In this document: piece after piece, positions 25,897 through 52,266 of the stretch
How the letters are laid out: each line of letters begins with the position of its first letter
Numbering within the stretch: the stretch's first letter is position 1
Origin: Haloarcula nitratireducens
Lineage (GTDB): Archaea; Halobacteriota; Halobacteria; Halobacteriales; Haloarculaceae
Direction: 5' to 3'
Length of the DNA stretch: 58,550 nucleotides
NCBI RefSeq assembly: GCF_019599505.1
Contig: NZ_RKLT01000020.1
Span: forward strand, 1 to 58,550
Notes under the pieces: model-generated
Database searches by the model: none
What the model was told of the DNA's origin: nothing
What the model saw: the letters and a program-made list of their open reading frames with translations, nothing else
Made by a program: the position numbers and the translations under genes

Positions 25897-26088
25897 CGTC
25901 TACCATTTTCATTAGCAGGTACAAATATCCTTGGGAATTAATCAGGATGTTTACACTCTATTTTCGAGTCGAACAGTGGTCTGTTCGCTGACCTAAACGA
26001 ATCCTCTGAACTCGCCCAGTGCGTGACGTTCGCGGGCGAGGATCGATAGTTGCTCTAGCAAATTCTATCTCTGAAAGCGCTGTAGGGA

Positions 26089-27363
26089 TTAGATACCCCA
26101 CATCGAGAGAACGGGGAACCAGGCGATCAACAAGATAATCGCCAACATGGCCAGCATAAACGGCACCGCGTCTCTCGCGATATCAGTGATGGACTCGCCG
26201 CTGACACCGGACATCACGTAGAGATTGAGGCCGATCGGCGGAGTAATGAATCCGACTGCAAGTGCGGAAATAAAGAAGACACTGAAATGCACTGGATGCA
26301 TGCCGATTCGCTCGCCGATGGGAAGCAGTATCGGACCCAAGACGAGGATATTCGGGGTCGTCTCCATGATCGCTCCGGCCATAAAGAGAATCACGATCAT
26401 GATGAGCGTCACGAGATAGAAGTTCGTCGTCGTTCCAATGACTGCACTCACCAACGCTTCCGGAATGCCAAGTGCGGAGAGTGCTTGGCTAAAGAGAAGT
26501 GCGATCGCGATTATCGGAGCGATGACCCCATTGACTAATGCACTCCGTTCCAGCATTTCGGGAAACTGTGGGAGCGATAGTCGCTGCAGCACTACGCCAA
26601 TCACGATAGTCGTAATGACCGCGACTGCAGATGCTTCGGTCGGCGTGAACACCCCGGAATAAATCCCACCGAGGATAATGAACGGGATCAGGAGCCCGTA
26701 TTTTGCGTCCCAGACGCTGTAACCGATATCTCCCAGTTCAGGGTGTCCGGTCCCGGATTCGTATCCGTGGACTCGGTTCATGACGACGTTCATCACGACC
26801 ATTCCGAGTAGTATCGCGACGCCGGGAATCAACGCCGCAAGAAAGAGCGTCGACGCGGAAATACCGAACACGAGTCCGACGATGATGTACGAGATGCTCG
26901 GCGGGATGAGGATACCGGTCGACGCACCGCTCGCGACGATCGAACTGGCATAAGAACGGCTGTATCCGCGTTCTTCGAGACGGTCTAACGTGATTCGACC
27001 CAACGCTGCCGCATCTGACGCGTTGGAGCCGCTGATAGCCGCGAACAGGCCACAACCGAACAGCGTTGCCGTGCCCATCCCGGTACGGAATCCACCGAAG
27101 ATACTCTGCGTGAAGTTCAGCAGCTTCCGTGAGAAGCCAGTTTCGACGATTGCGTCCCCCGTCAGGATGAACAGCGGAACGGCGATGAGGGCGAAGGCAT
27201 CCAGCCCAGTGAAGAGCGTCTGGCCTAACAACACCGTCGGCAGGACGTTCGTCACTTGGAGAAGGAGGTACCCTCCGATTCCTAACGAAGCGAATACCGG
27301 AATCCCGAGCAGAATCAAAATCGCGGTCAGGACCAGGATACCGATGATAGTGGCAGAGACCAT
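26089..27363 (-). CDS. dctM: TRAP transporter large permease (DctM type), probable sulfonate importer
   Basis: 424 residues with about 12-13 membrane segments, complete for the DctM family. Recognisable stretches: VPLFILTGDAIVETGFSRKL, GTATLFGCGLFAAISGSNASDAAALG, GILIPPSISYIIVGLVFGIS, VFTPTEASAVAVITTIVIGV and MHPVHFSVFFISALAVGFIT followed by PPIGLNLYVMSGV. It forms the ion-coupled transmembrane channel with the small subunit encoded just upstream. The stop-start spacing is one base. The position downstream of suyAB-hpsN-like genes makes 2,3-dihydroxypropane-1-sulfonate or sulfolactate the likely substrate, in analogy with hpsKLM of marine bacteria; specificity itself cannot be read. Confidence 0.85.
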   Translation of the reverse strand: MVSATIIGILVLTAILILLGIPVFASLGIGGYLLLQVTNVLPTVLLGQTLFTGLDAFALIAVPLFILTGDAIVETGFSRKLLNFTQSIFGGFRTGMGTATLFGCGLFAAISGSNASDAAALGRITLDRLEERGYSRSYASSIVASGASTGILIPPSISYIIVGLVFGISASTLFLAALIPGVAILLGMVVMNVVMNRVHGYESGTGHPELGDIGYSVWDAKYGLLIPFIILGGIYSGVFTPTEASAVAVITTIVIGVVLQRLSLPQFPEMLERSALVNGVIAPIIAIALLFSQALSALGIPEALVSAVIGTTTNFYLVTLIMIVILFMAGAIMETTPNILVLGPILLPIGERIGMHPVHFSVFFISALAVGFITPPIGLNLYVMSGVSGESITDIARDAVPFMLAMLAIILLIAWFPVLSMWGI

Positions 27364-27364
27364 A

Positions 27365-27931
27365 TTACGAGAACAGCTCCTCTCCTTTATACACCGGGCG
27401 ACCCGCCCGAACGTCTTGAACGTCTCGGTACAGCGCCTGCAACACTCGAACTCCGAGCAGCGTCATTCCGATTGGTACTGCCACTTGGAAGTAGATCATG
27501 TCGACACGAAGTGCTTCCGTAACCGCTCCGAACTGGAGTTGGGTCTGGATTTGTGGAATTGTCCATCGGATAGCGACTACGACGAAGGCGAAGGTAACGA
27601 TGTCACCAAGAATATACAGTAGCCCGGTCACTCGCTCCGAGACATACTGATGGAGGATGTCGATACGGATGTGCAACCGCTCGTTGACACCCCAACTAGC
27701 TCCGATCCAGGTGAGGTAGATGAACATGTATCGCGCCGTTTCCTCGCCCCAGAGACTGGCGTTATTGAGAACGAATCGACGAAACACCTCAATGCCGATA
27801 ATCGCGATAATATACACGTAGAACGAGAGGAGAAGATATCTCTCTAGGTTTTCGTTCAGCGCCTGTGCAAGTTTCGACGTTCTATTCACAGTCCTTCCTG
27901 AATCGGTAGCTTGCGGCGTTCTTTCGGACAT
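27365..27931 (-). CDS. dctQ: TRAP transporter small permease (DctQ type)
   Basis: 188 residues from ATG 27931 (MSERTPQATDSG), four membrane segments as usual for DctQ. Family markers: RYLLLSFYVYIIAIIGIEVF, RRFVLNNASLWGEETARYMF, IYLTWIGASWGVNERLHIRI and the late LGVRVLQALYRDV. The NASLWGEExARYMFIYLTWIGAS region is the signature of this subunit. It sits between dctP and dctM with minimal spacing (45 and 1 bp), so all three are in one transcript. It couples the large permease to the binding protein. Confidence 0.85.
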   Translation of the reverse strand: MSERTPQATDSGRTVNRTSKLAQALNENLERYLLLSFYVYIIAIIGIEVFRRFVLNNASLWGEETARYMFIYLTWIGASWGVNERLHIRIDILHQYVSERVTGLLYILGDIVTFAFVVVAIRWTIPQIQTQLQFGAVTEALRVDMIYFQVAVPIGMTLLGVRVLQALYRDVQDVRAGRPVYKGEELFS

Positions 27932-27976
27932 AGTCTGGTATCTCTCTGGTCTGTTACCCAACGTATTGTCGAAACT

Positions 27977-29113
27977 TCAGCTCGGGATTTCGAACTCGCT
28001 CTGTTTCTCCGTCGCCTTCTCTAGTGCTTTGAACGTCTCCATGTCGCCTGCGAGCTTCTTTTTCCAACTCTCCCATTCGGACCGCTGATAGCCCACTTTA
28101 TCCTTCCACTTCTGGATCTGGCTGTCCGACGGGTCGTGGATTTTCACACCAGCCTCCTCGAGCTGGCTGATCGATTCCTGCCGGGACTTTGGCACTTGAT
28201 CGAGATTCGCCTTGAACGTCTGTTTTGCTGCCGTATCGACCGCTTCTTTGAGATTGTCCGGGAGTTTCTGATACCACTGACGGTTCATCGCATACACCTG
28301 CGCGTCCTCGACCATTTTGATACGCGTGATGTGCGAGACCAAGTCGCTGAATCCGAACGCGACGAACGCTTCGATCGAAACGTGCAGGGAGTCTGCGACG
28401 CCTTCTTCAATTGCAGTGGGAGTCTCGCCCCATGGGATAGGCGTCGGGTTGGCGCCGGCCATGTTCCACGACTCCTTGAGGATCTCGGACCCAGGGATTC
28501 GGTGTTTGTATCCTTTCATATCGGAGGGCGTCATCACCTTGCTTTTCCCCTTCCCGACGCCGACCGCCCGGGGATCAATGACGAGGTAGAAGAGCGGCTC
28601 GAACCCGTTAGACCGAATTTTATTGTGGACGTTGTCTTCCCACGCTTTACTCGTAACCAGATTGACGAACTGTTGGTTCGTCCCGGCGAAGTACGGCAGA
28701 TTCACCAGGTCCACCGCCGAAGCGTACGGTGAGAAGTTCGAGAACGAGAACTGCGCGGCTTGGACCGTCCCGGACTGGACTTTCTGGGCGAGCTGTGATC
28801 CCGATCCTAAGACGCCGTTCGGGTGAAGCTTCACCGAGATTTGTCCGTTCGAAGCTTCTTCGACGTTCTTTTTGAACTCCTGTTGCATCACCGGGTACAC
28901 TTTCGTCGTGCCGATTTTGTACGCGGTGGCGACATCCATCTGATAGGATTCCCCGCTCGAACCCGACGTTGCTCCTCCGGTCTGTTCTCCGCCCGTGCTC
29001 CCATCGCCACTGCCACCGCCGTCGCCGCCATCACCACTACAACCCGCAAGTGCGACGATACTGGCTGCACTACCGATACCTTTGACGTATTGCCGTCTGT
29101 TGACTCTCGGCAT
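27977..29113 (-). CDS. dctP: TRAP transporter substrate-binding lipoprotein (DctP type)
   Basis: 378 residues from ATG 29113. Signal MPRVNRRQYVKGIGSAASIV (RR at 6-7) leads to a lipobox ALAGC, then a Gly/Ser/Thr linker, so a Tat-exported lipoprotein. The mature DctP fold is clear: ATAYKIGTTKVYPVMQQEFK, VKLHPNGVLGSGSQLAQKVQ, SGTVQAAQFSFSNFSPYASA, and the carboxylate-binding region FYLVIDPRAVGVGK...YKHRIPGSEILKESWNMAGA. The usual conserved Arg that fixes an organic acid lies in GYKHRIPGS. Binding of a sulfonate is inferred from the operon. A 6-bp inverted repeat (29116-29133) lies between the TATA box and ATG. Confidence 0.85.
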   Translation of the reverse strand: MPRVNRRQYVKGIGSAASIVALAGCSGDGGDGGGSGDGSTGGEQTGGATSGSSGESYQMDVATAYKIGTTKVYPVMQQEFKKNVEEASNGQISVKLHPNGVLGSGSQLAQKVQSGTVQAAQFSFSNFSPYASAVDLVNLPYFAGTNQQFVNLVTSKAWEDNVHNKIRSNGFEPLFYLVIDPRAVGVGKGKSKVMTPSDMKGYKHRIPGSEILKESWNMAGANPTPIPWGETPTAIEEGVADSLHVSIEAFVAFGFSDLVSHITRIKMVEDAQVYAMNRQWYQKLPDNLKEAVDTAAKQTFKANLDQVPKSRQESISQLEEAGVKIHDPSDSQIQKWKDKVGYQRSEWESWKKKLAGDMETFKALEKATEKQSEFEIPS

Positions 29114-29115
29114 AG

Positions 29116-29133
29116 TCCTACGTGAATAGGACA
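29116..29133. promoter_or_regulatory. Inverted repeat in the dctP promoter (GTCCTA-N6-TAGGAC)
   Basis: A perfect 6-bp inverted repeat with a 6-bp spacer lies 3-20 bp upstream of the dctP ATG. An AT-only TATA-like block (about 29136-29149) sits immediately further upstream, at the usual 25-35 bp distance. Its location between TATA box and start is typical for a repressor site in haloarchaea. Which protein binds is unknown. Confidence 0.4.
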
Positions 29134-29347
29134 ACATAAATAATTTATGACTATGGTAGGCAAGAAGTCGACTTGCGATATTCATGCCGCTACCGGTATC
29201 AAAGAAGCGCCAGTTATCGGTCTCCGGGTACCGATATACCTTGTCGTATTCGGGCTAGATAATCTCTCGAGAGCAGCGAAAGAAATCGTTTCGAGAGCCT
29301 AATCGATTGCTGAGACGCTCGTCAGATACCCACGTAGCCCGGCTCAG

Positions 29348-30625
29348 TCATTCGTCGACTGGTCGACGTTCCGCCGAAAGCTGATGTCCGTGCATCCCTT
29401 CCATCTCGGAGATGCGCGCAGCGTAGTCTGAGAGATGTGCTGCGCCCTCGGGGGTAAGTTGCTGGTGGGTAATTGTCTTCATGTACGCCCCGACCCAGCA
29501 GCCGCCGTTGAAGCGCGCAGTTCCATGGGTTGGCAAAATGTGGTCGGGGCCAGTGACCTTATCGCCAAACGCCACAGGTGCGTTGTGTCCCAAGAATGCC
29601 CCTCCGTAGTGATGTAAGTCTTCGAGTATTTCTCGCGGTGCCTCCGTCATGATCTGAACGTGTTCGATAGCGTACTCGTCAGACACCGCCGCAGCGGCTT
29701 CCTCGTCCGGGACCACGATGACTTCGCCGTTTTCTTCCCAGCACGTGCGTGCCGTCTCTTCCGTCGTTAGCTTCGGAAGCCACGTTTCGATTTCTTCGAG
29801 CGTGCGTTCTGCCAGCCCCTGGTCCGTAGTGACGAGGACCGATTGGGAAGTCTCTGTGTGTTCGGCCTGTGAAAGCAGATCTAAAGCCACTATTTCCGGA
29901 TCTGCTGTCTCGTCTGCGATGATGAGCACTTCCGTCGGTCCAGGGAGTAAGTCGATGTCGACTTCGCCGAACACCTGTCGCTTGGCTTCGAAGACGAAGA
30001 CGTTACCCGGCCCTGTAACCACGTCGACAGACCCGACGGTTTCGGTGCCATATGCCATCGCTCCGATAGCTTGTGCGCCGCCGATCTTGTAAATCTCGTC
30101 GGCGCCCGACTGGTCCATCGCATACAGCTGATAGGCGTTCGCCGAGCCGTCGGGACGTGGTGGCGTACAGGTAATGACTCGATCAACGCCCGCAACGCGA
30201 GCGGGGACGATCGACATCGGTGCCGACGAAATGTGGGTGAAGTGCCCACCGGGAACGTACGTTCCTGCTGCTTCGACCGGAAGCGTCCGCTGGCCACATC
30301 GGATGCCCTCTCCGAACTCTTCTTCGAAGTCACTGTCTATCGACGCTTTTTGTGCCTCAGCAAAGTTCCGAACCCGTTCGATGCTATAGTCGATCCGTTC
30401 TTTCTCTTCGTCGGTCAGCTGCTCGTGAGCCGCCTGGATCTCGTCGTCCGTGACTCGGAAGTCGTCGATCTCGACGCCATCGAACTTCGCGGTCAACTGT
30501 CTAACTGCCTCATCTTGATCCTCTCGCACCGACGATAGGATATCGTAGACGCTGTCGCGAACATCTTTTGATATCTCCGTCGCCTGATCGGGTGCCTCTT
30601 TGACGTAGGTACGTTCAGCTCCCAT
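29348..30625 (-). CDS. hpsN: Histidinol-dehydrogenase-family enzyme, probable sulfopropanediol 3-dehydrogenase (HpsN)
   Basis: 425 residues, full-length for the HisD superfamily. Markers: EAAGTYVPGGHFTHISSAPM, SIVPARVAGVDRVITCTPPR, DEIYKIGGAQAIGAMAYGTE, DVVTGPGNVFVFEAKRQVFG, DLLPGPTEVLIIADETADPE, DLLSQAEHTETSQSVLVTT and GPDHILPTHGTARFNGGCWV. Histidine biosynthetic HisD normally has LPTGGxARF...SGLS here; the PTHGTARFNGG form and the absence of other his genes point to the HpsN-type branch, which oxidises (R)-2,3-dihydroxypropane-1-sulfonate through the aldehyde to 3-sulfolactate with two NAD+. Next to suyAB and a TRAP transporter, this reading is strong but not proven. Confidence 0.75.
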   Translation of the reverse strand: MGAERTYVKEAPDQATEISKDVRDSVYDILSSVREDQDEAVRQLTAKFDGVEIDDFRVTDDEIQAAHEQLTDEEKERIDYSIERVRNFAEAQKASIDSDFEEEFGEGIRCGQRTLPVEAAGTYVPGGHFTHISSAPMSIVPARVAGVDRVITCTPPRPDGSANAYQLYAMDQSGADEIYKIGGAQAIGAMAYGTETVGSVDVVTGPGNVFVFEAKRQVFGEVDIDLLPGPTEVLIIADETADPEIVALDLLSQAEHTETSQSVLVTTDQGLAERTLEEIETWLPKLTTEETARTCWEENGEVIVVPDEEAAAAVSDEYAIEHVQIMTEAPREILEDLHHYGGAFLGHNAPVAFGDKVTGPDHILPTHGTARFNGGCWVGAYMKTITHQQLTPEGAAHLSDYAARISEMEGMHGHQLSAERRPVDE

Positions 30626-30775
30626 ACCCCGACATCTATCCCCACTTACTAATATTTTTCTCTGTGTGAATAATGTTTACTTAATAGCAGTAGCTAAATA
30701 TACCGCCAAAATTTCCAACCGCTGATTGGTTCTCGGCTCCGCTGTCTCGACAGCCTGAATTTGGGTTAGTGTTCG

Positions 30776-31948
30776 TTAGGTCGAGGGGCCGATGCGGTGG
30801 ATAGCGAACTGGCTTTCGCCCAGCGCTTCGCTCAGGGTGACTTTGCCGTTGACGACCTCTTCGATCTCATCCCAGAGCTGGTCGGTCGCCCAATCGAAGG
30901 ACTCGTCGCCGACTAAGGCTTCGCTGACGTCAACGTCAGTCTCCTCGGGCACGCGCTCGGCGCTGCCCGGGTTCCCCGTGATTTTGATCGTCGGCATCAC
31001 CGCGTTCGAGAGGGTGTGGCCCTGCCCAGTGGAGATAACCATGAAGTGCGCCCCACCAGCACCGATGCCGGTGACGGATTCGGCGCCGTGGCCGGGCGTG
31101 TCCATGATGTACATCCCCGAATCACGGGGAATCTTCGACCCGTAGTCGATGATGTCTTGGATCGGGCCGTCGCCGGATTTCACCAGCGCACCGAGCGATT
31201 TCTCTTCGATGGTGGTCAACCCACCATCCATGTTGTCCGGGGTCGGCTGGGCACCGCGGACGTCGTAGCCGGTCGCCTGGAGCCGTTCGTCCCAGTGTTC
31301 GACCCGTTCGAGGATCTCCTCTTTGACCTCGTCGTTGATCGCGCGCTCGGAGAGTTCGTTTTCGCCGCCGAAGAACTCGGGCGTCTCGGCGAAACAGCCG
31401 CGGCCGCCGTGCTCGTCGATGAGCCGCCAGACGGCGTTTGCCGTCGCCTTGTGCTGGCACAGACCGCTCGTGGTGTCCGAGGTGGCGCAGTTGATGCCGA
31501 AGGTGAGGTTCGACATATCCGAAGGCACGCGCTTCTGGGCACTGGCGTCTTGGGCCATCTCTTGGGCGGAGTTGACCGTCCGTTTCAGCGCGTTCATGAC
31601 GCCCTCCTCTCGGTGGATGTTAACCGAATCGCTGGGGCGTCCGGTCTCGGCGATATCCTCTGCCAACTCGTCACCGTCGACAATCTCGCCCGCGTGGGCG
31701 ACGACGACCGCGCCGTACGTATTCGGATGGGTCGCGTAGCCCAACAGCGTTCGATACGTCTGGAAGACGTCTGGCTTGGTCTGACAGCGCCCGAGGGGAT
31801 GGGTGATCGGAATCGCGTCCTCGACGATATCCGCCGCGCGTTTGACCGTATCGTTGGCGTAAGGCGCGGTCGAGACGATGACCGTGTGGTTGCGAATGCC
31901 GACACTCCCGTCGTCGCGTTCGTATCCGAGGAATTGGTTGTCACTCAT
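30776..31948 (-). CDS. suyB: 3-Sulfolactate sulfo-lyase large subunit (SuyB), altronate-dehydratase family
   Basis: 390 residues from ATG 31948 (MSDNQFLGYERDDGSVGIRN); a GTG at 31957 overlaps suyA. The UxaA/GarD family core is present: GVRN-like GSVGIRNHTVIVSTAPYAND, PLGRCQTKPDVFQTYRTLLG, ATHPNTYGAVVVAHAGEIVD, LTFGINCATSDTTSGLCQHK, GGRGCFAETPEFFGGENELS, and GHTLSNAVMPTIKITGNP near the C terminus. Length matches the SuyB subunit (about 42 kDa) better than full altronate dehydratase fusions. The iron-dependent enzyme removes sulfite from 3-sulfolactate to give pyruvate. Altronate or another sugar acid is the alternative substrate, but adjoining genes favour a sulfonate. Confidence 0.75.
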   Translation of the reverse strand: MSDNQFLGYERDDGSVGIRNHTVIVSTAPYANDTVKRAADIVEDAIPITHPLGRCQTKPDVFQTYRTLLGYATHPNTYGAVVVAHAGEIVDGDELAEDIAETGRPSDSVNIHREEGVMNALKRTVNSAQEMAQDASAQKRVPSDMSNLTFGINCATSDTTSGLCQHKATANAVWRLIDEHGGRGCFAETPEFFGGENELSERAINDEVKEEILERVEHWDERLQATGYDVRGAQPTPDNMDGGLTTIEEKSLGALVKSGDGPIQDIIDYGSKIPRDSGMYIMDTPGHGAESVTGIGAGGAHFMVISTGQGHTLSNAVMPTIKITGNPGSAERVPEETDVDVSEALVGDESFDWATDQLWDEIEEVVNGKVTLSEALGESQFAIHRIGPST

Positions 31949-31953
31949 TGTGC

Positions 31954-32277
31954 TCACTCACTCACTACCTTCGCCTGGTCGTCATCGGCGAGGTCGCCGC
32001 GACCGTAGTTCGACTCGACGTTATGGACGTGGACCCACGTGCCTGCGGGGATATCCTCCGTCGCGTTGCCGATGCTCTTGCCGTACTTCGTGATGGTCTC
32101 GCCGGACGCGATGTCCTCGATGGCGATCTTGTGGCCGAAGATGACGTCTTCGGCGATCTCGACGGTGCGTTCCTCGTCGCCGACGCCAACCGAAACGGTC
32201 TCGCCCGCTTCGAGCTCGCGCAATGCCGTCGCGACGTTGTCCGTTGGTTCGACTACCTGCAGATACCTATCGGGCAT
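31954..32277 (-). CDS. suyA: 3-Sulfolactate sulfo-lyase small subunit (SuyA), SAF domain
   Basis: 107 residues from ATG 32277 (MPDRYLQVVEPTDNVATALR). It is a free-standing SAF domain: GETVSVGVGDEERTVEIAED, VIFGHKIAIEDIASGETITK, YGKSIGNATEDIPAGTWVHV and a final HNVESNYGRGDL. In altronate dehydratases this domain is fused or adjacent and carries the HKxA/YGxxIG/HVHN motifs that help bind substrate and metal; all are visible here. The stop is 5 bp before the suyB ATG. A TATA-like AATTATATAC on the complement (32301-32310), 25-33 bp upstream, gives this operon segment its own promoter. Confidence 0.8.
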   Translation of the reverse strand: MPDRYLQVVEPTDNVATALRELEAGETVSVGVGDEERTVEIAEDVIFGHKIAIEDIASGETITKYGKSIGNATEDIPAGTWVHVHNVESNYGRGDLADDDQAKVVSE

Positions 32278-32294
32278 ACAGGGTGAGAGTCTTT

Positions 32295-32320
32295 CCACCA
32301 GTATATAATTGTTTTGGTGG
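32295..32320. promoter_or_regulatory. suyA promoter with flanking inverted repeat (CCACCA-N14-TGGTGG)
   Basis: The TATA-like box of suyA (complement of 32301-32310) is embedded in the 14-bp spacer of a perfect 6-bp inverted repeat, CCACCA at 32295-32300 and TGGTGG at 32315-32320. A protein bound here would cover the core promoter. The motif differs from the GTTC-N9-GAAC sites upstream of the SDR and IclR genes. Confidence 0.4.
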
Positions 32321-32327
32321 CGGTGGG

Positions 32328-33323
32328 TCAGAATATTGTGACTACGATCAAGAGGGCGAGCGAACTGATGGTGAGAAGGTGAATGAAGACGAGTAACACC
32401 GGCTTGAGTCCTGCTTCTCGGATTTCGTCGAACCCGATATCGAAGCCCAGGCCTGCAAAGGCCAGCAAGAACAACCAGGATCGGGCCCTCCCAACGAAAT
32501 TCAACTCTCCTGCAGAGAGAGTCCACAGATTCGCGACGAGCACCACGACAAGAAAGCCGAGCAGGAATTTCGGAAAGCGATTCCAGACCTTCGAAAGTGC
32601 AATTTGGTCAGTCTCAGCGGTGGCGTAGCGAACTGCATAGCCGACCGCAACGACGCCGATGAACGTGTTCCGGACCAGTTTCGTCACTGTCGCCCACTGC
32701 CCCGCAGTTTCGGAAACGGCGAAGCCGACTGCCGCTGTTGGGCCGGTACTGAACAGGCTCAAGCCGGTCCAAATACCGAACTGCTTGGCCGAAAGGTGAA
32801 GCGACTGCTCGGCAACCGGAAAGAGAACCAGCGTAACGGCATCGAAGAGTAGTATCGTCGCGACGGCATAGGTGATGTCGGTCTCGTCTACATCGATGCT
32901 CCCAGCAACGGCCAGAACGGCGGAGACCCCACAGACACTCGCACCGGCCGCTAGGAGTGACGTCGTCCGCTGTCTGATAGCAAAGAGACGGCCAATGACG
33001 AGTTCCATATAGAGCACGCCGAATACGACGACGCCTGTGGCGAGTCCAAGGACGATTGGACCAGTTTGAGCGAGTTCACCTAACGTGAGACGCACCCCGA
33101 GGAGGACGATTCCGGTTTCGAGGAAAAGACTGTGCGTATTCAACCCGGGCCGCGCCCAGTCGGGGACACCGACCGTGTTAGCGAGCGTCGCCCCAAGCGC
33201 AATCGCGACGATGAGCGGGCTGAGTGCGGGGATGGAATTGCCCAGTACACGAGCGATCCCAGCAATCCCGAGCAGAACGGCGAGTCCCGGTGCTAGTAAG
33301 CGAAGACGTGACAGCACGGACAT
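32328..33323 (-). CDS. YeiH/UPF0324-family exporter (putative sulfate/sulfite exporter)
   Basis: 331 residues, about ten membrane segments. Family markers: ALSPLIVAIALGATLANTVG, PGLNTHSLFLETGIVLLGVR, LTLGELAQTGPIVLGLATGV, SLLAAGASVCGVSAVLAVAG, and GLSLFSTGPTAAVGFAVSETAGQWATVTKLVRN. The GASVCGxSAV and KLVRN motifs are the hallmarks of the YeiH group (putative sulfate exporters, PSE). In a cluster that liberates sulfite from sulfolactate, an anion exporter for sulfite or sulfate is the natural role, by analogy with exporters in bacterial sulfonate operons. It starts two bases before the end of the small membrane gene upstream and precedes suyA by 50 bp. Confidence 0.8.
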   Translation of the reverse strand: MSVLSRLRLLAPGLAVLLGIAGIARVLGNSIPALSPLIVAIALGATLANTVGVPDWARPGLNTHSLFLETGIVLLGVRLTLGELAQTGPIVLGLATGVVVFGVLYMELVIGRLFAIRQRTTSLLAAGASVCGVSAVLAVAGSIDVDETDITYAVATILLFDAVTLVLFPVAEQSLHLSAKQFGIWTGLSLFSTGPTAAVGFAVSETAGQWATVTKLVRNTFIGVVAVGYAVRYATAETDQIALSKVWNRFPKFLLGFLVVVLVANLWTLSAGELNFVGRARSWLFLLAFAGLGFDIGFDEIREAGLKPVLLVFIHLLTISSLALLIVVTIF

Positions 33324-33325
33324 CG

Positions 33326-33478
33326 TCAGAACCCTACGTCAATGAGTTGGTACAGAACGATAAGAACGCCGAAGAGGGCCGCTTTCCATCCTCGGTCGAG
33401 TGATTCCCAGTGACGGGCGACCGCGTGTCGAAAACGGTCGATTCGCTCATCCGGTGGTTTAGCGTTCTGCTCGGTCAT
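33326..33478 (-). CDS. 50-residue single-TM protein upstream of the exporter
   Basis: A short gene: ATG at 33476-33478, TGA at 33326-33328, encoding MTEQNAKPPDERIDRFRHAV, ARHWESLDRGWKAALFGVLI and VLYQLIDVGF. A basic/acidic N terminus is followed by one membrane helix (about residues 32-48). It ends two bases before the YeiH-type start, so the two are almost certainly co-transcribed. It may be a small accessory subunit or stabiliser of the exporter, which is inference. No family is known to me. Confidence 0.65.
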   Translation of the reverse strand: MTEQNAKPPDERIDRFRHAVARHWESLDRGWKAALFGVLIVLYQLIDVGF

Positions 33479-33620
33479 ACGTTCACTCGAAAAGCGGAGA
33501 GCAATTATTTATAGCTGATGGTCGGTGCCGGACGCAAATGCGAGAATCGGGTCGATTCGTCGGCACTCATAGCGGTGCCGTGGATCGTTTACCCGAAAGC
33601 GGTCTCTGTCGCTAAGCGGA

Positions 33621-34376
33621 TTAGACGATCGAGAACCCTCCGTCAGCTATGAGTACGTGTCCGTTGACGTAACTCGCCATATCCGAAGCGAGGAACGTCG
33701 CGGTATCAGCGATTTCGTCGGGCTCAGCGAGCCGTCGAAGCGGCGTCGCGTCTTCGAGATACGACTGTCGCTCTTCGCTCATAACGTCGTGCACCATGGC
33801 GGTCAACGTGCCACCGGGCCCGACAGCGTTGACCCGAATGCCTTCGGGACCGTAGTCGATGGCGTTCTGTCGAGTCATCATCGTCACGGCCCCTTTCGAA
33901 GTACAGTACGCCGGCGCTTCTGCTCGTCCAATTTGCCCGCTGATCGATGAGATATTGACGATACTCCCACTCGACTGTTCGAGCATATAATCGAGTGCCG
34001 CTTTCGTTCCGTGATAGACGCCGTCGACATTGATACGCATTAGTTCACGCCAATCCTCCGGCGAAGTTTCGTGGAGCATCGTTTGCCGGAGGATGCCAGC
34101 GTTATTCACCATGACGTCGATCGATCCGTATTCGTCCGCGGTAGTATCGACTAAGTCGACAACATCGTCGAAACGCGTGACATCCGTCTCGACGAAGATC
34201 GCATCACCGCCCGAATCATTGATTAGGTCGTCAGTTCGCGGTCCGCCTCTACGGGGTTCTCTTCGACAGTCACCGATCGCGATGTTAGCACCGTGTTCCG
34301 AGAACGTTCTCGCAATCGCTCGCCCGATACCACTCGCACCGCCCGTCACGACTGCAGTCTTTCCTTCGAGCATCAC
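33621..34376 (-). CDS. SDR-family oxidoreductase, candidate DHPS dehydrogenase
   Basis: 251 residues, classical short-chain dehydrogenase. Cofactor motif TGGASGIG (residues 11-18), NNAG at about 91-94, catalytic Ser in NISSISGQIG and Tyr-x3-Lys as YCTSKGA (about 156-162), and C-terminal SYVNGHVLIADGGFSI. A haloarchaeal-type insertion (CRREPRRGGPRTDDLINDSGG) after the first acidic strand suggests an NAD-linked polyol or hydroxyacid enzyme. Position beside the IclR gene and the sulfonate cluster suggests it interconverts DHPS enantiomers via the ketone, as HpsO and HpsP do in Cupriavidus; that is inference. Starts at either of two tandem ATGs, 34376 or 34373. Confidence 0.8.
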   Translation of the reverse strand: MMLEGKTAVVTGGASGIGRAIARTFSEHGANIAIGDCRREPRRGGPRTDDLINDSGGDAIFVETDVTRFDDVVDLVDTTADEYGSIDVMVNNAGILRQTMLHETSPEDWRELMRINVDGVYHGTKAALDYMLEQSSGSIVNISSISGQIGRAEAPAYCTSKGAVTMMTRQNAIDYGPEGIRVNAVGPGGTLTAMVHDVMSEERQSYLEDATPLRRLAEPDEIADTATFLASDMASYVNGHVLIADGGFSIV

Positions 34377-34421
34377 ACGCCTCTATGCCTGACCCTCACA
34401 CATAATTCTATGCATGAATCG

Positions 34422-34444
34422 GCCGTTCGAATGAGTAGAACGGC
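34422..34444. promoter_or_regulatory. Candidate IclR operator upstream of the SDR gene
   Basis: Perfect 7-bp inverted repeat GCCGTTC (34422-34428) and GAACGGC (34438-34444) around 9 bp. The GTTC-N9-GAAC core and the 9-bp spacing are the same as in the palindrome before the IclR gene (34700-34720). It lies about 46-68 bp upstream of the SDR start, just outside a TATA-like box (complement of about 34401-34410). Confidence 0.6.
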
Positions 34445-34699
34445 GCGAAAACCCTCGGCGAACACGCCAATGAGGTGAGATCTGGAATATCACAGTTCTC
34501 GAAGCGTCCAGCCCAGTATCCCCGTAGTTCGAGTGGAGGTCGCTCGTTCGACTGATTTGAACGAGTATTCTGGGTGTGTGATAACACACCTCATTTACTT
34601 TCCCTCGTAGTGGCTTTGAGTATAATCCGACGGATAGACGGGGTACACAGCGAAGATTGTGATTGGAATGGTGGTTAGCGGCGCTCCACTGATGCCGAA

Positions 34700-34720
34700 T
34701 TGTTCAAGTGGGTTGAACAA
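34700..34720. promoter_or_regulatory. Candidate IclR operator upstream of the iclR gene
   Basis: Perfect 8-bp inverted repeat TTGTTCAA (34700-34707) and TTGAACAA (34713-34720) with 5 bp between them; equivalently GTTC-N9-GAAC. It ends 32 bp before the IclR ATG and directly abuts a TATA-like CATTTATTAC. The shared core and spacing with 34422-34444 make it the likely regulator-binding site, with autoregulation implied. Confidence 0.65.
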
Positions 34721-34752
34721 CATTTATTACGTACTATCATGAAGTACCGCGT

Positions 34753-35538
34753 ATGAGCGAAAAACCAGCTAAGTCAAATCGAACTACGGAAAAACTCCTC
34801 GAGATAATTTCCGCACTTGACGAAGGTGGCCCACAGGGCGTGACCGAACTCGCGACCCATCTCGAGCTCCCGAAGAGTACGGTTCACTATCACCTTCAGG
34901 TGCTTGATGAGACGGGGTACGTCGTTCGAGAGAACCAGCGGTACCGACTTGGACTCCGTTTCCTCGAGATCGGCGAAAACACGCGACGCCGAATCCAGCT
35001 GTACGAAGCGGCCAAGGAAGAGATCAATCAACTTGCTACCACGACTGGCGAACTCGCGATACTCATGGTTGAGGAACAGGGGTTGGGCGTCTACCTCTAC
35101 AAGCAAGGCGGTGAGCAAGCGATGGACGTGGACGCTCCCATCGGTCGACACGCGTATCTCCACGACCGGGCGATTGGCAAGGCTATTTTGGCTCATCTCC
35201 CGGACGAACGCGTCGAGGCGATTATCCAGGAACACGGGCTCACTCAAACGACGGAGGAAACAATTAGCACTCGAGAGGAGCTGTTCGACTCGTTAGAACG
35301 GATTCGGAGCGAAGAGGTGGCATATAATCTAGGCGAAGCAGTCGAGGGATTACATGCTGTTGCGGTCCCGATCCTGACGGAGAGCGGTGACGTGCTCGGC
35401 GGCATCAGCATAGCCGGCCCAGCGAGGCGTTTAGAAGGCGACCGAATCACCGAGGAGATTCCAAAGCATCTCTTCCAAGCGAAGAACGTGATTGAGCTGA
35501 AGCTACAGAAAAACCATCAGAAGCTCTACCGCGGTTAG
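34753..35538 (+). CDS. IclR-family transcriptional regulator
   Basis: 261 residues. The N-terminal winged helix (about residues 10-70: TTEKLLEIISALDEGGPQGV, TELATHLELPKSTVHYHLQV, LDETGYVVRENQRYRLGLRF) is followed by the IclR ligand domain (about 85-250) with VEEQGLGVYLYKQGGEQAMD, GRHAYLHDRAIGKAILAHLP, VAYNLGEAVEGLHAVAVPIL and GGISIAGPARR. All typical family segments are intact. It is divergent from the SDR and faces away from the suyAB-hpsN-TRAP operon. IclR proteins commonly control carboxylate and sulfonate catabolism, so it is the prime candidate regulator of the sulfonate genes. Ligand unknown. Confidence 0.9.
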   Translation: MSEKPAKSNRTTEKLLEIISALDEGGPQGVTELATHLELPKSTVHYHLQVLDETGYVVRENQRYRLGLRFLEIGENTRRRIQLYEAAKEEINQLATTTGELAILMVEEQGLGVYLYKQGGEQAMDVDAPIGRHAYLHDRAIGKAILAHLPDERVEAIIQEHGLTQTTEETISTREELFDSLERIRSEEVAYNLGEAVEGLHAVAVPILTESGDVLGGISIAGPARRLEGDRITEEIPKHLFQAKNVIELKLQKNHQKLYRG

Positions 35539-36031
35539 AGTAACACAGGTACGTTCGTTATTCCTCATGAGACCATCAACACGAGAAGAGAATATTACAG
35601 GACGAGCTGGAGTAGCCAGAAATACCGATACGAAAACGCCTCCCGGTATCTATATCACATATAGATTCGAGACTCTCGATACATAGTAAAAATCGGGATG
35701 AGAAGAACTATAATGCTGAATACAGTAGCACAAAACTAAAATATGAGTATATATGAGAGTATTTGCGCATAAATCGGACGAAATACTAAATATAGGAAGA
35801 AATTTGAGCCTAATTAGAGAGACATGAGAACTATATGCTGGTAGATAATCTTATACAGATAAATACGCGAAGTTAATCAATTTGAATGGTCTCAGTCGCT
35901 ACCCAATTCCGTAGAAATAGTTGTATCTTCACTGAGCATCATAGTTGATCACGATATTGTGGAGAGCTCTCTCGATAAGTTATTTTCATACTGGCTCGTC
36001 TGCGTCTGGAGTGGATAAAGTGAACCTGTAT
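35539..36031. other. AT-rich gene-free islet
   Basis: Nearly 500 bp with no gene. From about 35580 to 36000 the sequence is markedly AT-rich against the GC-rich surroundings, with many ATA/TAT words and no long frame on either strand. It lies between the IclR gene and a truncated mobile-element ORF, so it may be the flank of an integrated element. I see no inverted terminal repeats. Confidence 0.5.
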
Positions 36032-36117
36032 CAGCGGCGGCGGCAGGCCACGTGCCACCGCGTCCATCACCGCTGATTCTGTGCCGATTCCCTTCTCAAT
36101 TGGTGGTCGTCACAGGG
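36032..36117. repeat. Dispersed repeat, copy 4 (partial)
   Basis: The last part of the repeat (from the CAGCGGCGGC...CACGTGCCACCGCG block to the ORF stop) matches 24722-24807. The hairpin portion is missing. As with copy 3, it forms the 3' flank of a copy of the mobile-type ORF. Confidence 0.65.
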
Positions 36118-36550
36118 TTACCCCGAAGACTCCACCACAACGGGCGTGACGTCTCCTGTGGTTGCTTTCCGATCGCCATTCTCCAAGAGATCGAGGCCGA
36201 CGTAGCGTTGCTCGACTAAGCTCTCGGCAGTCTCTATGTCCATCGCTAACAGCTCCGTCTGTGTCTGGTCCCGTTCGACTTGCCGGATCTTCTCGATAAG
36301 GTCGTCACCACCGATCTCGATCAGCTTCTCCCAGACGCGTTTAACCGTCTGTCGGTGCGGCTCTTTCCCGAGTTCCGCGGTCAGAGCAGTCTCGACATCG
36401 TTCTTCGTGAAGAAGATGCCACTCCCGTCAGTCCGTTCGGTCGCGAACCCTGGCCACCGCTTGGTGACGCTAATCGCTCGGTACGTGTTCTGGCGGTTCG
36501 ACCGCTCGACGAACATCGTCTTGACTTCCTGGCGGCAGTTCGCGAAGAAA
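36118..36550 (-). pseudogene. Haloarchaeal mobile-element-type ORF, truncated (copy 2)
   Basis: Closely related to the C-terminal two-thirds of the ORF at 24808-25454, but here in one frame: MFVERSNRQNTYRAISVTKR, ETALTAELGKEPHRQTVKRV, WEKLIEIGGDDLIEKIRQVE, ending in VTPVVVESSG. Homology to copy 1 begins at FFANCRQEVK, at base 36550, just 8 bp after the aldehyde dehydrogenase stop codon. The N-terminal 90 or so residues are gone. The break lies exactly at the edge of the catabolic cluster, so the element probably marks a recombination joint. Confidence 0.6.
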
Positions 36551-36558
36551 GAGCTGAT

Positions 36559-37947
36559 TCATTCGACCCAAACCGTTTTCGGATTGGTGAACTCTCGAAT
36601 ACCGTGATCGGAGAGTTCCGACCCGTATCCCGACTGCTTGATACCGCCAAAAGGGAGTCGTGGATCGGACTGTACAATCTGATTAACGAAGACATTCCCA
36701 GCTTCGATTTTGGAGACGAGATTTTCACCGCGGTCGGTATCGCCGGTCCAGACGCTCGCCCCAAGGCCGTACTGAGAGTCATTCGCGACGCTGACCGCCG
36801 TCTCCTCGTCGGGAACGGAGGTGACAGTTGCGACCGGTCCGAAAAGTTCTTCCTCAGCAGCTGGACACCCGTCTGGAACACCAGTCAATACTGTTGGCGG
36901 ATAGAAGTAACCCGTTCGGGAGAGCGGTTCGCCACCCGTAACGATAGTAGCACCGGCCTCAACGGAGGCCTGGACTTGCTCATCGAGTTGTTCGAGTAGG
37001 TCTGCCCTGGCTAAGGGGCCGATGTCCGTCGCTTCGTCGGCAGGATCGCCGACGGTAAGCGATTTCATCTCCCGCGTGAACGCGCTGAGAAACTCGTCGG
37101 CAATTCCATCGTGGACGACGATTCGTTTAGCGGAGATGCACGACTGTCCAGCGTTCAGTGTGCGGGCCGACGCAGCACGCTCGGCGACCGTCTCGATCGG
37201 CGCATCGTCAAGGACAACGAATGGGTCGCTTCCGCCGAGTTCGAGGACGGTCTTTTTAAGTGCCTCACCACTTTCGGCGGCCACCGCCCGCCCGGCGCGA
37301 GTGCTTCCGGTGAGCGTAACGGCCGCAATCCGGTCGTCTCTGATAACGTTCGCGACTCGGTCATCGGGGATCTGTAGCGACGAAAAGACCCCGTCGGGGT
37401 AGCCGGCCTCGCGGAAAATCGACGTGATCGCCTGCGCACACCCCATCGTATTTGGGGCGTGTTTGAGGACGCCGACGTTTCCTGCAGTAAGGTGAGGAGC
37501 GGCGAACCGGAAGACCTGCCAGAACGGATAGTTCCAGGGCATAATCGCGAGTACCGGGCCTAGAGGCTCATACGTGACGTAGGTCTTCGTCCCGGGTACC
37601 GCGCCGAGACGGTCGTCTTGCAGGTACTCGCCAGCCCGTTCGGCGTAGTACTCACAGACCCACGCGCACTTCTCGACTTCACTACGTGCTTGGTCGATTG
37701 GTTTGCCGACCTCGTCGGTGATGAGTTCGGCATACTCTGCTTTCCCATCGCGAAGAACTGTCGCTACGCCTTCGAGAAGCGACTCACGCTCCGTGATCGG
37801 TCTGTCGCTCCAAGAATCGAACTGTGCAGCCGCGGTTTCCAACGTCGACTCCACGGTCGCCTCGTCGTCAACGGCGTACGAGCGGAGGTCCACCTCGGTC
37901 GCGGGATTCGTCGTCTGGAACGACGTTGGCGGTCGCTCGTCGCTCAT
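36559..37947 (-). CDS. NAD(P)-dependent aldehyde dehydrogenase, succinate-semialdehyde type
   Basis: 462 residues. Family markers: PLGPVLAIMPWNYPFWQVFR, LKHAPNTMGCAQAITSIFRE, LTGSTRAGRAVAAESGEALK, KTVLELGGSDPFVVLDDAPI with the general-base Glu, and LNAGQSCISAKRIVVHDG with the catalytic Cys. The NPATE start and PLGPVLAIMPWNYPFWQ are characteristic of the GabD/Sad group that oxidises succinate semialdehyde. Its ATG overlaps the glutamate dehydrogenase stop (ATGA). With a GABA-type aminotransferase in the same cluster, it should complete a GABA shunt to succinate. Substrate is inferred from family similarity and neighbours. Confidence 0.85.
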   Translation of the reverse strand: MSDERPPTSFQTTNPATEVDLRSYAVDDEATVESTLETAAAQFDSWSDRPITERESLLEGVATVLRDGKAEYAELITDEVGKPIDQARSEVEKCAWVCEYYAERAGEYLQDDRLGAVPGTKTYVTYEPLGPVLAIMPWNYPFWQVFRFAAPHLTAGNVGVLKHAPNTMGCAQAITSIFREAGYPDGVFSSLQIPDDRVANVIRDDRIAAVTLTGSTRAGRAVAAESGEALKKTVLELGGSDPFVVLDDAPIETVAERAASARTLNAGQSCISAKRIVVHDGIADEFLSAFTREMKSLTVGDPADEATDIGPLARADLLEQLDEQVQASVEAGATIVTGGEPLSRTGYFYPPTVLTGVPDGCPAAEEELFGPVATVTSVPDEETAVSVANDSQYGLGASVWTGDTDRGENLVSKIEAGNVFVNQIVQSDPRLPFGGIKQSGYGSELSDHGIREFTNPKTVWVE

Positions 37948-39221
37948 GGCCAGATCCCCAAAGTTTCGTGGCTTTCGGCGATCCGCTCTACTGCAACCGC
38001 GTATGCCGCGTCTCGCCAGTTAATTCCTCTCGTCTCGTGGCTCTCGCGGACTGCGTCCCAGGCCGCTAGCATCCGATTGTCGAGTTCTTCCCGCACCTGC
38101 TCGTGGGTCCACGAGCGTCCGTTCGTGTTTTGGAGCCACTCGAAGTAGCTGGCGGTGACGCCGCCGGCGTTGGCGAGGATGTCTGGGATCACCGGCACAC
38201 CGCGCTCGTCGAGAACGGTGTCGGCCGGTGCCGTCGTCGGTTCGTTCGCCCCCTCGACGACGAGAGACGCCGTCACATCGGGTGCGTTGGCTTCGGTCAG
38301 AACGCCACCGATAGCGGCGGGGACGAGGACATCCACGTCCAGTTCGAGCAATGCAGCATTCGACACGGCTGTCGTGTCGCCGGCGTCTCGGTCTTCTAAC
38401 GGTCCGGACTTTGCGGCGAGCTCGTCGACATCGAGGCCGGACGCGTCGTAGATGCCACCGTCGACGTCGCTCACAGCGACGATGGACGCGCCCCACTTGT
38501 CGAGGAGTTGAGCGGCGTGGCTACCGACGCTCCCGAAGCCTTGGATAGCTACGGTCAGCTCCTCGACCGAATACTCGTAGTACCGCGCGGCCTCGCGAAC
38601 GATGAGCGCCGTGCTGCGACCGGGTGCTTCCTCGCGCCCGGTGAGTCCGCCGACCCGCGGCGGTTTCCCGGTCACGACTCCACGGGTCCCGTCCCCGGTC
38701 TGCATCTTATACACGTCGGTGACCCACGCCATCGTCTGTGCGTCGGTTCCCATGTCTGGTGCGGGGATATCCGTCTGGGGCCCAACGAACGACCGGAGCT
38801 CCTCCGCGAACCGGCGGGTGAGCCGTCGCTTCTCCTCAGTTGAGAGTTCGCGAGGGTTGACGGCGACGCCGCCTTTCGCGCCCCCGAACGGAAGGTCGAG
38901 AAGCGCGCACTTCCAGCTCATCGCCATCGCCAGAGAGACACACTCCCCGGCGGTCACATCCGGGTGATACCGGAGACCACCCTTGTACGGCCCGCGGACA
39001 TTGTCGTGCTGTGCTCTGAACCCTTCGAACACCTCGACCGATCCGTCGTCGAGTCGAACCGGAATCGAGACGTGGTGAACCTGCGAGGGGTATTTCAGTC
39101 GTTCGACGTACTCGTCGCTGACATCAACCAGATTCGAGAGTCGGTCCAGCCGTCGCTGGGCTGTCTCAACTTTCGGGTCCTGTGAGTCCGTCTCTGCTGT
39201 CACGGCGTTCGCTGAAATCAT
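37944..39221 (-). CDS. Glu/Leu/Phe/Val dehydrogenase family (glutamate dehydrogenase)
   Basis: 425 residues, complete. Markers: GFRAQHDNVRGPYKGGLRYH, MSWKCALLDLPFGGAKGGVA with the catalytic Lys, DIPAPDMGTDAQTMAWVTDV, the Rossmann motif AIQGFGSVGSHAAQLLDKWG, and DVLVPAAIGGVLTEANAPDV with a late ANAGGVTASYFEWLQN. This is the archaeal hexameric glutamate dehydrogenase pattern. In this cluster it would recycle glutamate formed by two aminotransferases back to 2-oxoglutarate, releasing ammonia. It overlaps the aldehyde dehydrogenase by 4 bp. An AT-rich leader lies upstream before the Lrp gene. Confidence 0.9.
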   Translation of the reverse strand: MISANAVTAETDSQDPKVETAQRRLDRLSNLVDVSDEYVERLKYPSQVHHVSIPVRLDDGSVEVFEGFRAQHDNVRGPYKGGLRYHPDVTAGECVSLAMAMSWKCALLDLPFGGAKGGVAVNPRELSTEEKRRLTRRFAEELRSFVGPQTDIPAPDMGTDAQTMAWVTDVYKMQTGDGTRGVVTGKPPRVGGLTGREEAPGRSTALIVREAARYYEYSVEELTVAIQGFGSVGSHAAQLLDKWGASIVAVSDVDGGIYDASGLDVDELAAKSGPLEDRDAGDTTAVSNAALLELDVDVLVPAAIGGVLTEANAPDVTASLVVEGANEPTTAPADTVLDERGVPVIPDILANAGGVTASYFEWLQNTNGRSWTHEQVREELDNRMLAAWDAVRESHETRGINWRDAAYAVAVERIAESHETLGIWP

Positions 39222-39342
39222 TACTCTGTACTCGAATATCTCGGCCTATACTTAATAATCTTTTCGAATATACGTCGAATAGTGGGATGAGAATCAGTAT
39301 ATGGGGAAGAGTTAGGATTAAATTCGAGATTGGTTAGCCATC

Positions 39343-39840
39343 TCAGGCTGTCGAATCAGCGGACAACAACGCTATCAGCGTGTCGGGGTCGAAGTCGTTC
39401 AGCGGTCGTGATTCATCCTTGATGGTCTTGATGACGAACTTGGAACTCGTCTGCTCGACACCGTCAATGGACTCGAAATTCTCGATGAGTCGCTCGACCA
39501 TATTGCGACTGGAGAGATGTGAGATAACGACGAAATCAGTATCTCCCATCGTGAAGTAGACCTGGTTGACTCCCTCGACATCGGCGAGTTCCTGTCCCAC
39601 GTCTTCGTGATATTGTTCACTGTACTCCGCGGTCACCTCGCTGATGACAGTGAGGTTCAGACCGACCGCCTCGAGGTCGACGTCGAACAAATCGTTCGTG
39701 ATGATGCCGGTTTCTCTGAGCCTCTCTAATCGGTAGTGGACTGTCGATGTCGGAATATCGGTCTCGTCAGCCAGTTTCTCCGCGCTTCCGGTACCAAATC
39801 GGGCGACCGCCGCGAGGATCTTCACGTCCTTTTCGTCCAT
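39343..39840 (-). CDS. Lrp/AsnC-family transcriptional regulator
   Basis: 165 residues from ATG 39840 (MDEKDVKILAAVARFGTGSA). N-terminal helix-turn-helix (about residues 5-50: EKLADETDIPTSTVHYRLER, LRETGIITNDLFDVDLEAVG) and a C-terminal RAM/ACT-like effector domain (LTVISEVTAEYSEQYHEDVG, ELADVEGVNQVYFTMGDTDF, VVISHLSSRNMVERLIENFE). The family senses amino acids or related metabolites. It stands between the thiolase and glutamate dehydrogenase genes on the same strand and is likely the local regulator of the amine/amino-acid catabolic genes. The upstream start frame (39903) overlaps the thiolase and is not preferred. Confidence 0.85.
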   Translation of the reverse strand: MDEKDVKILAAVARFGTGSAEKLADETDIPTSTVHYRLERLRETGIITNDLFDVDLEAVGLNLTVISEVTAEYSEQYHEDVGQELADVEGVNQVYFTMGDTDFVVISHLSSRNMVERLIENFESIDGVEQTSSKFVIKTIKDESRPLNDFDPDTLIALLSADSTA

Positions 39841-39903
39841 CGTTGAATCACGTCCTACTTGGAAACGGATAGTTGAATACGTTCCGACGCGGGCGCGACG
39901 CAC

Positions 39904-42383: not shown

Positions 42384-42441
42384 ACTATGGAAAGTATTAT
42401 CCTCGTATAGGTATACATTGGAAAACGCGACTAAAAAACTA

Positions 42442-42458
42442 CCGGCTCTGAGAGCCGG
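42442..42458 (-). other. Strong hairpin between aminotransferase and Lrp-like regulator
   Basis: Perfect 7-bp stem CCGGCTC-TGA-GAGCCGG. On the minus strand it is followed after two or three bases by six T, like an intrinsic terminator or attenuator, and sits about 60 bp upstream of the aminotransferase ATG. The flanks (GGAATACCCC before, TAGTTTTTT after on the minus strand) also recall a solo IS200/IS605-type right end. Either reading is tentative. Confidence 0.4.
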
Positions 42459-42478
42459 GGTATTCCAATTAATCACCT

Positions 42479-42997: not shown

Positions 42998-43081
42998 TCG
43001 GAGGGCTCGACTAGCTTCGCTCGGTGGTCAGTATCGCTCTGGTCGGGGCCGGTTTCGTCGAGCATCGTCCGACCGCGCTGT

Positions 43082-43118
43082 CGGCCCGAAAGCCCGTCGC
43101 CGCGTGGCGACCGGGCCG
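43082..43118. terminator. Nested hairpin between convergent genes
   Basis: Outer stem CGGCCC (43082-43087) with GGGCCG (43113-43118) enclosing a perfect inner stem GTCGCC-GCGT-GGCGAC (43096-43111). It lies between the stop of the Lrp-like gene and the stop of the permease on the other strand, so a bidirectional termination or insulation structure is likely. There is no long T-run. Confidence 0.45.
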
Positions 43119-43146
43119 TTCTACCGCCTGCTAGCGTCGCGTCGAC

Positions 43147-52254: not shown

Positions 52255-52266
52255 GCGGCCGCCCAA

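Follow-up and report, generated by a model that had tools for sequence, protein, structure and literature searches.

A predicted haloarchaeal operon for 2,3-dihydroxypropane-1-sulfonate catabolism in Haloarcula nitratireducens, with an HpsN-like dehydrogenase from outside the bacterial HpsN clade

Introduction

2,3-Dihydroxypropane-1-sulfonate (DHPS) has been described as an abundant carbon and energy currency passing from phytoplankton to bacteria (PMC11131964). The closest described systems for its use are the bacterial hps-suy clusters, like those of Paracoccus seriniphilus (locus L065) and Cupriavidus pinatubonensis (L020); Leisingera (L064) carries hpsKLM-hpsN without suyAB. Here we analyse a stretch of 58,550 nucleotides from the haloarchaeon Haloarcula nitratireducens (contig NZ_RKLT01000020.1, positions 1 to 58,550; hereafter the window), in which nine genes at 26089-35538 probably encode R-DHPS catabolism, comprising import, oxidation, lysis and anion export.

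HpsN is reported to form R-sulfolactate, and in the enzyme CpHpsN the sulfonate is held by zinc, His126 and Lys353, with His126 a conserved residue of HpsN that HisD lacks (PMC11382572). In HpsO, Gln147 is given as the residue for recognition of R-DHPS (PMC11131964). SuyAB is reported to act on R-sulfolactate, while S-sulfolactate derived from sulfosugars is first racemised by SlcC and ComC (PMC12421959). The literature consulted puts DHPS catabolism in bacteria: the available text of the HpsN survey names bacterial classes only (PMC11382572), and a 2026 review states that no sulfoquinovose degradation pathway has been characterised in archaea (PMC12890257). An earlier haloarchaeal mention exists, as suyAB was counted by pathway annotation in some cold-adapted Halorubrum; a term search of that paper's main text returned no DHPS or sulfonate term, and its available passages describe no operon (PMC10468875). 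Among the matches listed in the open-licence literature, a body that leaves most subscription papers and all preprints outside, an archaeal DHPS operon was not found.

The window has in common with the bacterial clusters an importer of the HpsK-group tripartite ATP-independent periplasmic (TRAP) type (L064, L065), a HisD-superfamily dehydrogenase with the His126 residue, a split SuyAB (L020, L065) and an annotated putative sulfate exporter (L065). It differs from them in having no hpsP and no true hpsO, an IclR gene in place of the bacterial LacI-type gene, no adjoining SlcC/ComC-type genes and a DctP with a predicted twin-arginine translocation (Tat) lipoprotein signal; moreover, its dehydrogenase belongs to a separate clade and its lyase to a remote one. 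Gene content, synteny, active-site residues, phylogeny and conserved palindromes were computed directly, and the assignments of substrate, stereochemistry, regulation and export are built on them.

Results

The importer

The binding protein DctP gives our strongest evidence on substrate. Compared with solved structures, it matched PDB 24gc with 370 bits, a structure titled 'Dihydroxypropanesulfonate (DHPS) TRAP transporter'; the next chain scored 74 bits. Against plasmid records, its relatives were a protein of H. pelagica (71% identity) and proteins of Rhodobacteraceae (47-52%), one annotated hpsK, after which identity dropped to 26%. In Leisingera (L064), Paracoccus (L065) and Rhodovulum (L066) the HpsK-group genes stand directly before TRAP permease genes and an hpsN-type gene. 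DctP is thus best read as a member of the DHPS-binding group. At E 1e-50 or better, such a protein occurs in 3 of 292 haloarchaeal genomes (73, 50 and 46% identity). The gene probably starts at 29113 and not at 29185 of the listed open reading frame, with a Tat lipoprotein signal, RRQYVKG...LAGC.

Another HpsK-like TRAP set, 46-57% identical to that of the window, lies at 9406-12301 of L081 (genome G135) with YeiH exporter, TctA and IclR genes upstream. No HpsN or SuyAB match was found in this 20 kb stretch or in L082, likewise a neighbourhood with HpsK-like TRAP genes.

The active site of the dehydrogenase

The nearest solved relative of the HisD-family enzyme is CpHpsN (8v35, 9cp7; ~40% identity), at 321 bits against 292 bits for the top HisD. 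The two share their catalytic, zinc and sulfonate residues: CpHpsN His126 and Lys353 align with His131 and Lys356 of the window enzyme, Asp49 (NAD+ preference) is retained, and 11 of the 13 CpHpsN active-site positions checked are identical. The remaining two, Leu45 to Phe and Ser226 to Thr, show the same changes in 5/6 bacterial HpsN. At the His131 position, His is found in 14/14 rows of the close haloarchaeal group and in none of 6 bacterial paralogues, 17 HisD or 21 haloarchaeal paralogues, the last having Leu in 21/21. Among the 119 matches listed in a wider comparison, this position is His in 13 (all at least 64% identical), Leu in 103 and Met in 3. At the Lys353 position, all 17 HisD have Tyr, the window enzyme reading GDK and the HisD form GDY. 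The 17 HisD rows exclude 7 of the 15 haloarchaeal HisD rows, which are in the tree below; L013 is in no group.

An earlier sequence-only reading of this DNA had singled out PTHGTARFNGG as a non-HisD active-site form. The motif is present in the window enzyme, and HisD of Methylococcus (4gic) reads PTSGTARFSS there. Given this similar form in a HisD, the motif was rejected as a discriminator between HpsN and HisD; as judged from the alignments, the discriminating residues are His131 and Lys356. An AlphaFold model of the HpsN-like protein has a mean predicted local distance difference test score of 78, with active-site loops below 50. Foldseek with this model returned CpHpsN as the best match with HisD close behind, at a top-row root-mean-square deviation of ~18 A, and is given little weight.

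Copy number and ancestry of the dehydrogenase

At E 1e-165 or better, the HpsN-like enzyme is found in 3 of 146 genomes of the family of genome G001. All three also hold a second hisD-family gene with GDY and Tyr at the His site, that is, the HisD form. A hisD-family gene is present in 39/39 sampled haloarchaea, and class-wide 24 of 292 genomes match the query at 1e-120, 23 of them at 54-60% identity (paralogue level) and one at 82%.

A tree of 72 rows separates HisD from every GDK-type protein with 100/100 support; the clustering with histidinol dehydrogenases that the sequence-only reading had named as counter-evidence was not seen. The 14 rows of the haloarchaeal HpsN-like group have the haloarchaeal paralogues as their sister (support for the pair 98/95), and the 6 rows of bacterial HpsN fall with paralogues from bacteria. 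Forcing the HpsN groups into one clade was rejected (p-AU 6.5e-6 in the approximately unbiased, AU, test; log-likelihood cost 85). On this tree the axial His needs at least two changes; as a single HpsN clade is rejected, the histidine probably arose twice, two gains being simpler than one gain and two or three losses, though other phyla are thinly sampled. The enzyme is therefore taken to be HpsN-like by active site and context, yet outside the bacterial HpsN clade. Its ancestor seems to have been another than that of bacterial HpsN, and it seems to have arrived at the same active site. The orthology with bacterial HpsN implied by the sequence-only reading is not supported, as profile scores (see Discussion) and the AU test place the enzyme with haloarchaeal HisD-like paralogues.

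GDK-type, HisD-like paralogues whose zinc-histidine position is Leu or Met were seen at L021, L083-L088 and L090, and in bacteria at L069, L070 and L122. They are annotated hisD where annotated, often lie beside a short-chain dehydrogenase/reductase (SDR) gene, and in some cases are near branched-chain-type ATP-binding cassette (ABC) transporter or enoyl-CoA hydratase genes.

The lyase and its genomic contexts

SuyAB consists of a separate SAF subunit and a GD_AH large subunit, as expected for sulfolactate sulfo-lyase. Against plasmids, SuyB matched ten records at 83-95%, of which seven had their loci viewed, and then a Haladaptatus UxaA-like protein at 42%. The 120 matches listed in a database search were all at least 82% identical, and this tight haloarchaeal clade occurs in 10 of 292 haloarchaeal genomes. 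In a 32-row tree, SuyB joins bacterial SuyB and a Variovorax protein in a group (94/85) separate from UxaA, GarD and Priestia-type proteins; the branches are long and the bootstrap is unsettled. This Variovorax protein is flanked by hydroxyacid and Ldh-type dehydrogenases. A single clade of window-type and bacterial SuyB was not rejected (p 0.09, with long branches and the Variovorax row inside). Membership in bacterial SuyB is weakly indicated. For the SuyB reading, genomic context is stronger than the tree.

That context was compared in 21 distinct SuyB loci, namely 17 (with L019 and its duplicate L089 counted once), the window and three more. They comprise four DHPS modules (A), twelve sugar modules (B), four of a third type (C), and L075 outside these. 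A YeiH or TauE exporter accompanies 17 of the 21 (A 4/4, B 8/12 with one 7 kb off, C 4/4, and L075), absences being soft as some stretches are cut short. As a control, an exporter was annotated in none of six other UxaA-family neighbourhoods viewed, those stretches being shorter. A ComC-like Ldh protein is present in 12/12 B, 3/4 C and 0/4 A loci. The one protein tested (from L016) has L-sulfolactate dehydrogenase 2x06 as its nearest solved relative (257 bits; next 187). A gene annotated as C-terminal binding protein, which may encode a D-2-hydroxyacid dehydrogenase and possibly SlcC, follows a similar distribution (B 12/12, C 1/4, A 0/4). These contents fit the R-sulfolactate stereochemistry proposed for the locus: module A is without ComC/SlcC-type dehydrogenases and module B has both.

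Module B (L016, L017, L018, L022, L072-L074, L076-L078, L080, L136) combines SuyAB and the two dehydrogenases with an enolase-type dehydratase and ABC sugar permeases; stretches that extend far enough also show a DHDPS-family aldolase, an aldehyde dehydrogenase, Gfo6, and GH31 or GH3. It looks like an Entner-Doudoroff-type route to sulfolactate, judging from these gene families, though it might process ordinary sugars. We considered its GH31 as a YihQ-type sulfoquinovosidase and rejected this: Q262, Q288, R301, W304 and Y508, which we take to be the substrate residues of YihQ (the letters were checked in YihQ), are kept in none of the seven GH31 rows aligned. One module-B GH31 has YicI as its nearest structure. 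One aldehyde dehydrogenase matches many enzymes of its kind, with 8c54, presumably a sulfolactaldehyde enzyme, fifth, and is not decisive. The tandem sulfofucolysis and SuyAB pathway described for Paracoccus wurundjeri has an SlcC/ComC-SuyAB-exporter logic like that of haloarchaeal module B; it is bacterial and uses other sugar enzymes (PMC12421959).

Module C (L015, L079, L135, and L019, the last being one record with L089), a putative sulfonate pathway, has SuyAB, TauE, a TAXI TRAP transporter, IclR, and genes of argininosuccinate-lyase-like, FAD and Fe-S reductase-like type, with Ldh in 3/4. In genome G298 all three modules occur, each on a contig of its own (A on L134, C on L135, B on L136). 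DNA identity among the suyB copies of the three is 91-95%, higher than the 88% between its module-A copy and suyB of the window, which suggests that the suyB cassette has been exchanged.

Layout, conservation and neighbours of the operon

The contiguous TRAP, HisD-family, SAF plus altronate-dehydratase-family, YeiH, SDR and IclR genes named in the sequence-only reading were all recovered at its positions, each with an above-cut-off Pfam match (Table 1). On the minus strand the order is SDR, YeiH, SuyA, SuyB, HpsN-like, DctP, DctQ, DctM (26089-34376), with iclR divergent on the plus strand. The listed frame of SuyA, 31954-32526, is over-extended relative to the gene, 31954-32277. All nine genes recur in the same order and relative orientation in L001 (metagenome-assembled genome QS_4_62_28), L014 (a Haloarcula pelagica plasmid) and L134, with protein identities to the window from 67.6% (YeiH, L001) to 99.1% (SuyA, L134). 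This synteny makes the array more than chance and fits a haloarchaeal origin of the window. The tight spacing claimed at first holds for YeiH-SuyA-SuyB and DctP-Q-M; elsewhere there are gaps of ~300 bp (SDR/YeiH), ~150 bp (SuyB/HpsN) and 160-230 bp (HpsN/DctP).

YeiH passed Pfam PF03601 at 190.7 bits against a cut-off of 24.5. The SDR was tried as HpsO, to which it is ~30% identical, and rejected, as Ser replaces Gln147, beside the catalytic Ser145 of HpsO.

Allowing up to one mismatch, the palindrome pattern GTTCRA-N5-TYGAAC has 5 matches in the window, where 0.8 would be expected, and none of 100 shuffles gave as many; this count is no independent test, as the pattern was chosen after the alignment had been seen. 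The iclR-internal palindrome and the neighbouring site are 581 bp apart in 4/4 loci, and the next site lies 151-156 bp further. The third gap palindrome departs from the pattern at no more than one position in the window and in L134, and is weaker, with two mismatches, in L001 and L014. All four are present in L134, which was added after the pattern had been chosen. We infer that IclR binds these palindromes. In module C, such sites lie around iclR in L019 and L079; L015 has none.

A megablast search of plasmids with 26000-45000 hit the suyAB region and some genes of the neighbouring cluster, no single record covering more than 8% of the query, and viral contigs, searched with close-relative patterns, gave no relative of the locus. 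That neighbouring stretch, 36559-53862, has aldehyde and glutamate-type dehydrogenase, thiolase, class-III aminotransferase, ABC transporter and CoA transferase genes, and resembles a distinct cluster for the catabolism of amines or amino acids.

Table 1. Genes and operator-like sites of the predicted operon in the window
Feature	Position	Strand	Evidence
DctM large TRAP permease (HpsM-like by position)	26089..27363	-	Pfam
DctQ small TRAP permease (HpsL-like by position)	27365..27961	-	Pfam
HpsK-like DctP, predicted DHPS-binding Tat lipoprotein	27977..29113	-	24gc match (370 bits), plasmid matches, Tat signal
HpsN-like predicted DHPS 3-dehydrogenase, HisD superfamily PF00815, His131 and Lys356	29348..30625	-	Pfam, residues, tree
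SuyB-like large subunit, GD_AH family	30776..31957	-	Pfam, haloarchaeal clade 82-95%, tree
SuyA-like small SAF-domain subunit, 107 aa	31954..32277	-	Pfam SAF; 324-nt gene in L014
YeiH/PF03601 putative sulfate or sulfite exporter	32328..33323	-	Pfam
SDR oxidoreductase, not HpsO by residue test	33621..34376	-	Pfam, residues
IclR-family regulator, divergent from operon	34753..35538	+	Pfam IclR_C, HTH_IclR; 72-87% identity in three sister loci
Operator-like palindrome, one mismatch	34425..34441	.	~50 bp upstream of SDR gene
Operator-like palindrome, exact	34546..34562	.	pattern search
Operator-like palindrome, exact	34702..34718	.	~35 bp upstream of iclR
Operator-like palindrome, one mismatch	35283..35299	.	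inside iclR; position kept in L001, L014, L134

Discussion

Under the R-DHPS reading, membrane-anchored DctP would bind DHPS and pass it to DctQM. The HpsN-like NAD+/zinc enzyme would then convert R-DHPS to R-sulfolactate in two oxidation steps, SuyAB would split R-sulfolactate into pyruvate and sulfite, and YeiH would move the sulfur anion out of the cell. IclR may control the divergent promoters through the palindrome set, and the SDR may act on the other enantiomer, or on an aldehyde or ketone intermediate.

Several observations weigh against this reading. The array has no hpsP-type gene and no true hpsO. The loop of the window enzyme is GHFTH, as against GRYAH in CpHpsN, a protein of a separate clade, and only the first and last letters agree with the published HpsN motif GRY(A/S)H. 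With profiles built without its own group, the window protein scored 637 bits with haloarchaeal paralogues, 481 with bacterial paralogues, 425 with bacterial HisD, 409 with bacterial HpsN and 376 with haloarchaeal HisD. YeiH reached 110.7 bits, below the NCBIfam TIGR00698 cut-off of 232.6. SuyB is 34% identical to C. pinatubonensis SuyB and 42% to the Haladaptatus UxaA-like protein. Finally, an exporter is annotated in only one of three bacterial SuyB stretches viewed; as the other two have none, the exporter is a supporting and not a defining mark of SuyAB.

The substrate could instead be a related C3 sulfonate, such as cysteinolate, sulfolactate or another hydroxy-sulfonate, which we consider unlikely. 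CpHpsN binds cysteate, a Paracoccus HpsN-like gene lies beside an aminotransferase, a racemase, a desulfhydrase-family gene, a tauA-type ABC transporter and an exporter, and the DHPS route leaves the SDR unexplained. However, the array is without an aminotransferase or deaminase, DctP matches a DHPS-named protein, and a sulfolactate importer would have no need of the HpsN-like enzyme. It is slightly less likely still that the operon is for a sugar acid or other non-sulfonate, with SuyAB an altronate/galactarate-type dehydratase and the HisD-like enzyme acting on an unrelated alcohol. Such a role would suit the closer match of SuyB to the UxaA-like protein, and the module-B relatives adjoin GH31 without sulfoquinovosidase residues, Gfo6 and an aldolase; it does not suit the DctP match to a DHPS-binding protein, the contrast in sulfur-anion exporters between the SuyB loci (17/21) and the other, shorter UxaA-family neighbourhoods (0/6), or the proximity of a ComC-like dehydrogenase (one protein) to the L-sulfolactate dehydrogenase structure. 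It is very improbable that a histidinol dehydrogenase of histidine biosynthesis has been mistaken here for HpsN: the enzyme does score 464 bits with NCBIfam hisD (TIGR00069; cut-off 244), but it lies outside the HisD clade (100/100), has Lys356 and His131, and is a second copy beside a HisD-type hisD in 3/3 genomes.

The R-DHPS reading stays the best one and is well supported by the sequence comparisons, with better grounds than the sequence-only reading had: the DctP match, the HpsN-type active site, and the exporter and ComC contexts. What did not carry over from the DHPS/sulfolactate module first proposed is HpsN orthology, and the tie to bacterial SuyB is weak. We give slightly better than even chances to a wider reading in which haloarchaea evolved their DHPS dehydrogenase from a HisD-like paralogue of their own, which gained the axial zinc histidine that bacterial HpsN also has, and joined it to an HpsK-type importer, with SuyAB as the hub for at least three modules: one for DHPS, one for an oxidised sugar, perhaps a sulfosugar, and one for a compound with argininosuccinate-lyase-like and TAXI-TRAP genes.

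If the R-DHPS reading is true, algal sulfonates in brine would be a source from which haloarchaea free sulfite or sulfate; under the wider reading, modules A, B and C would together form a complete network for sulfonate mineralisation in archaea. The sister paralogues of the enzyme have another residue at the histidine position (Leu in 21/21), so it would allow the question to be put, as an experiment of nature, whether this one histidine makes a sulfonate dehydrogenase of a HisD-like scaffold. For Haloarcula nitratireducens, the DHPS gene set most likely lets this archaeon feed on DHPS, a sulfur-bearing carbon compound that algae produce.

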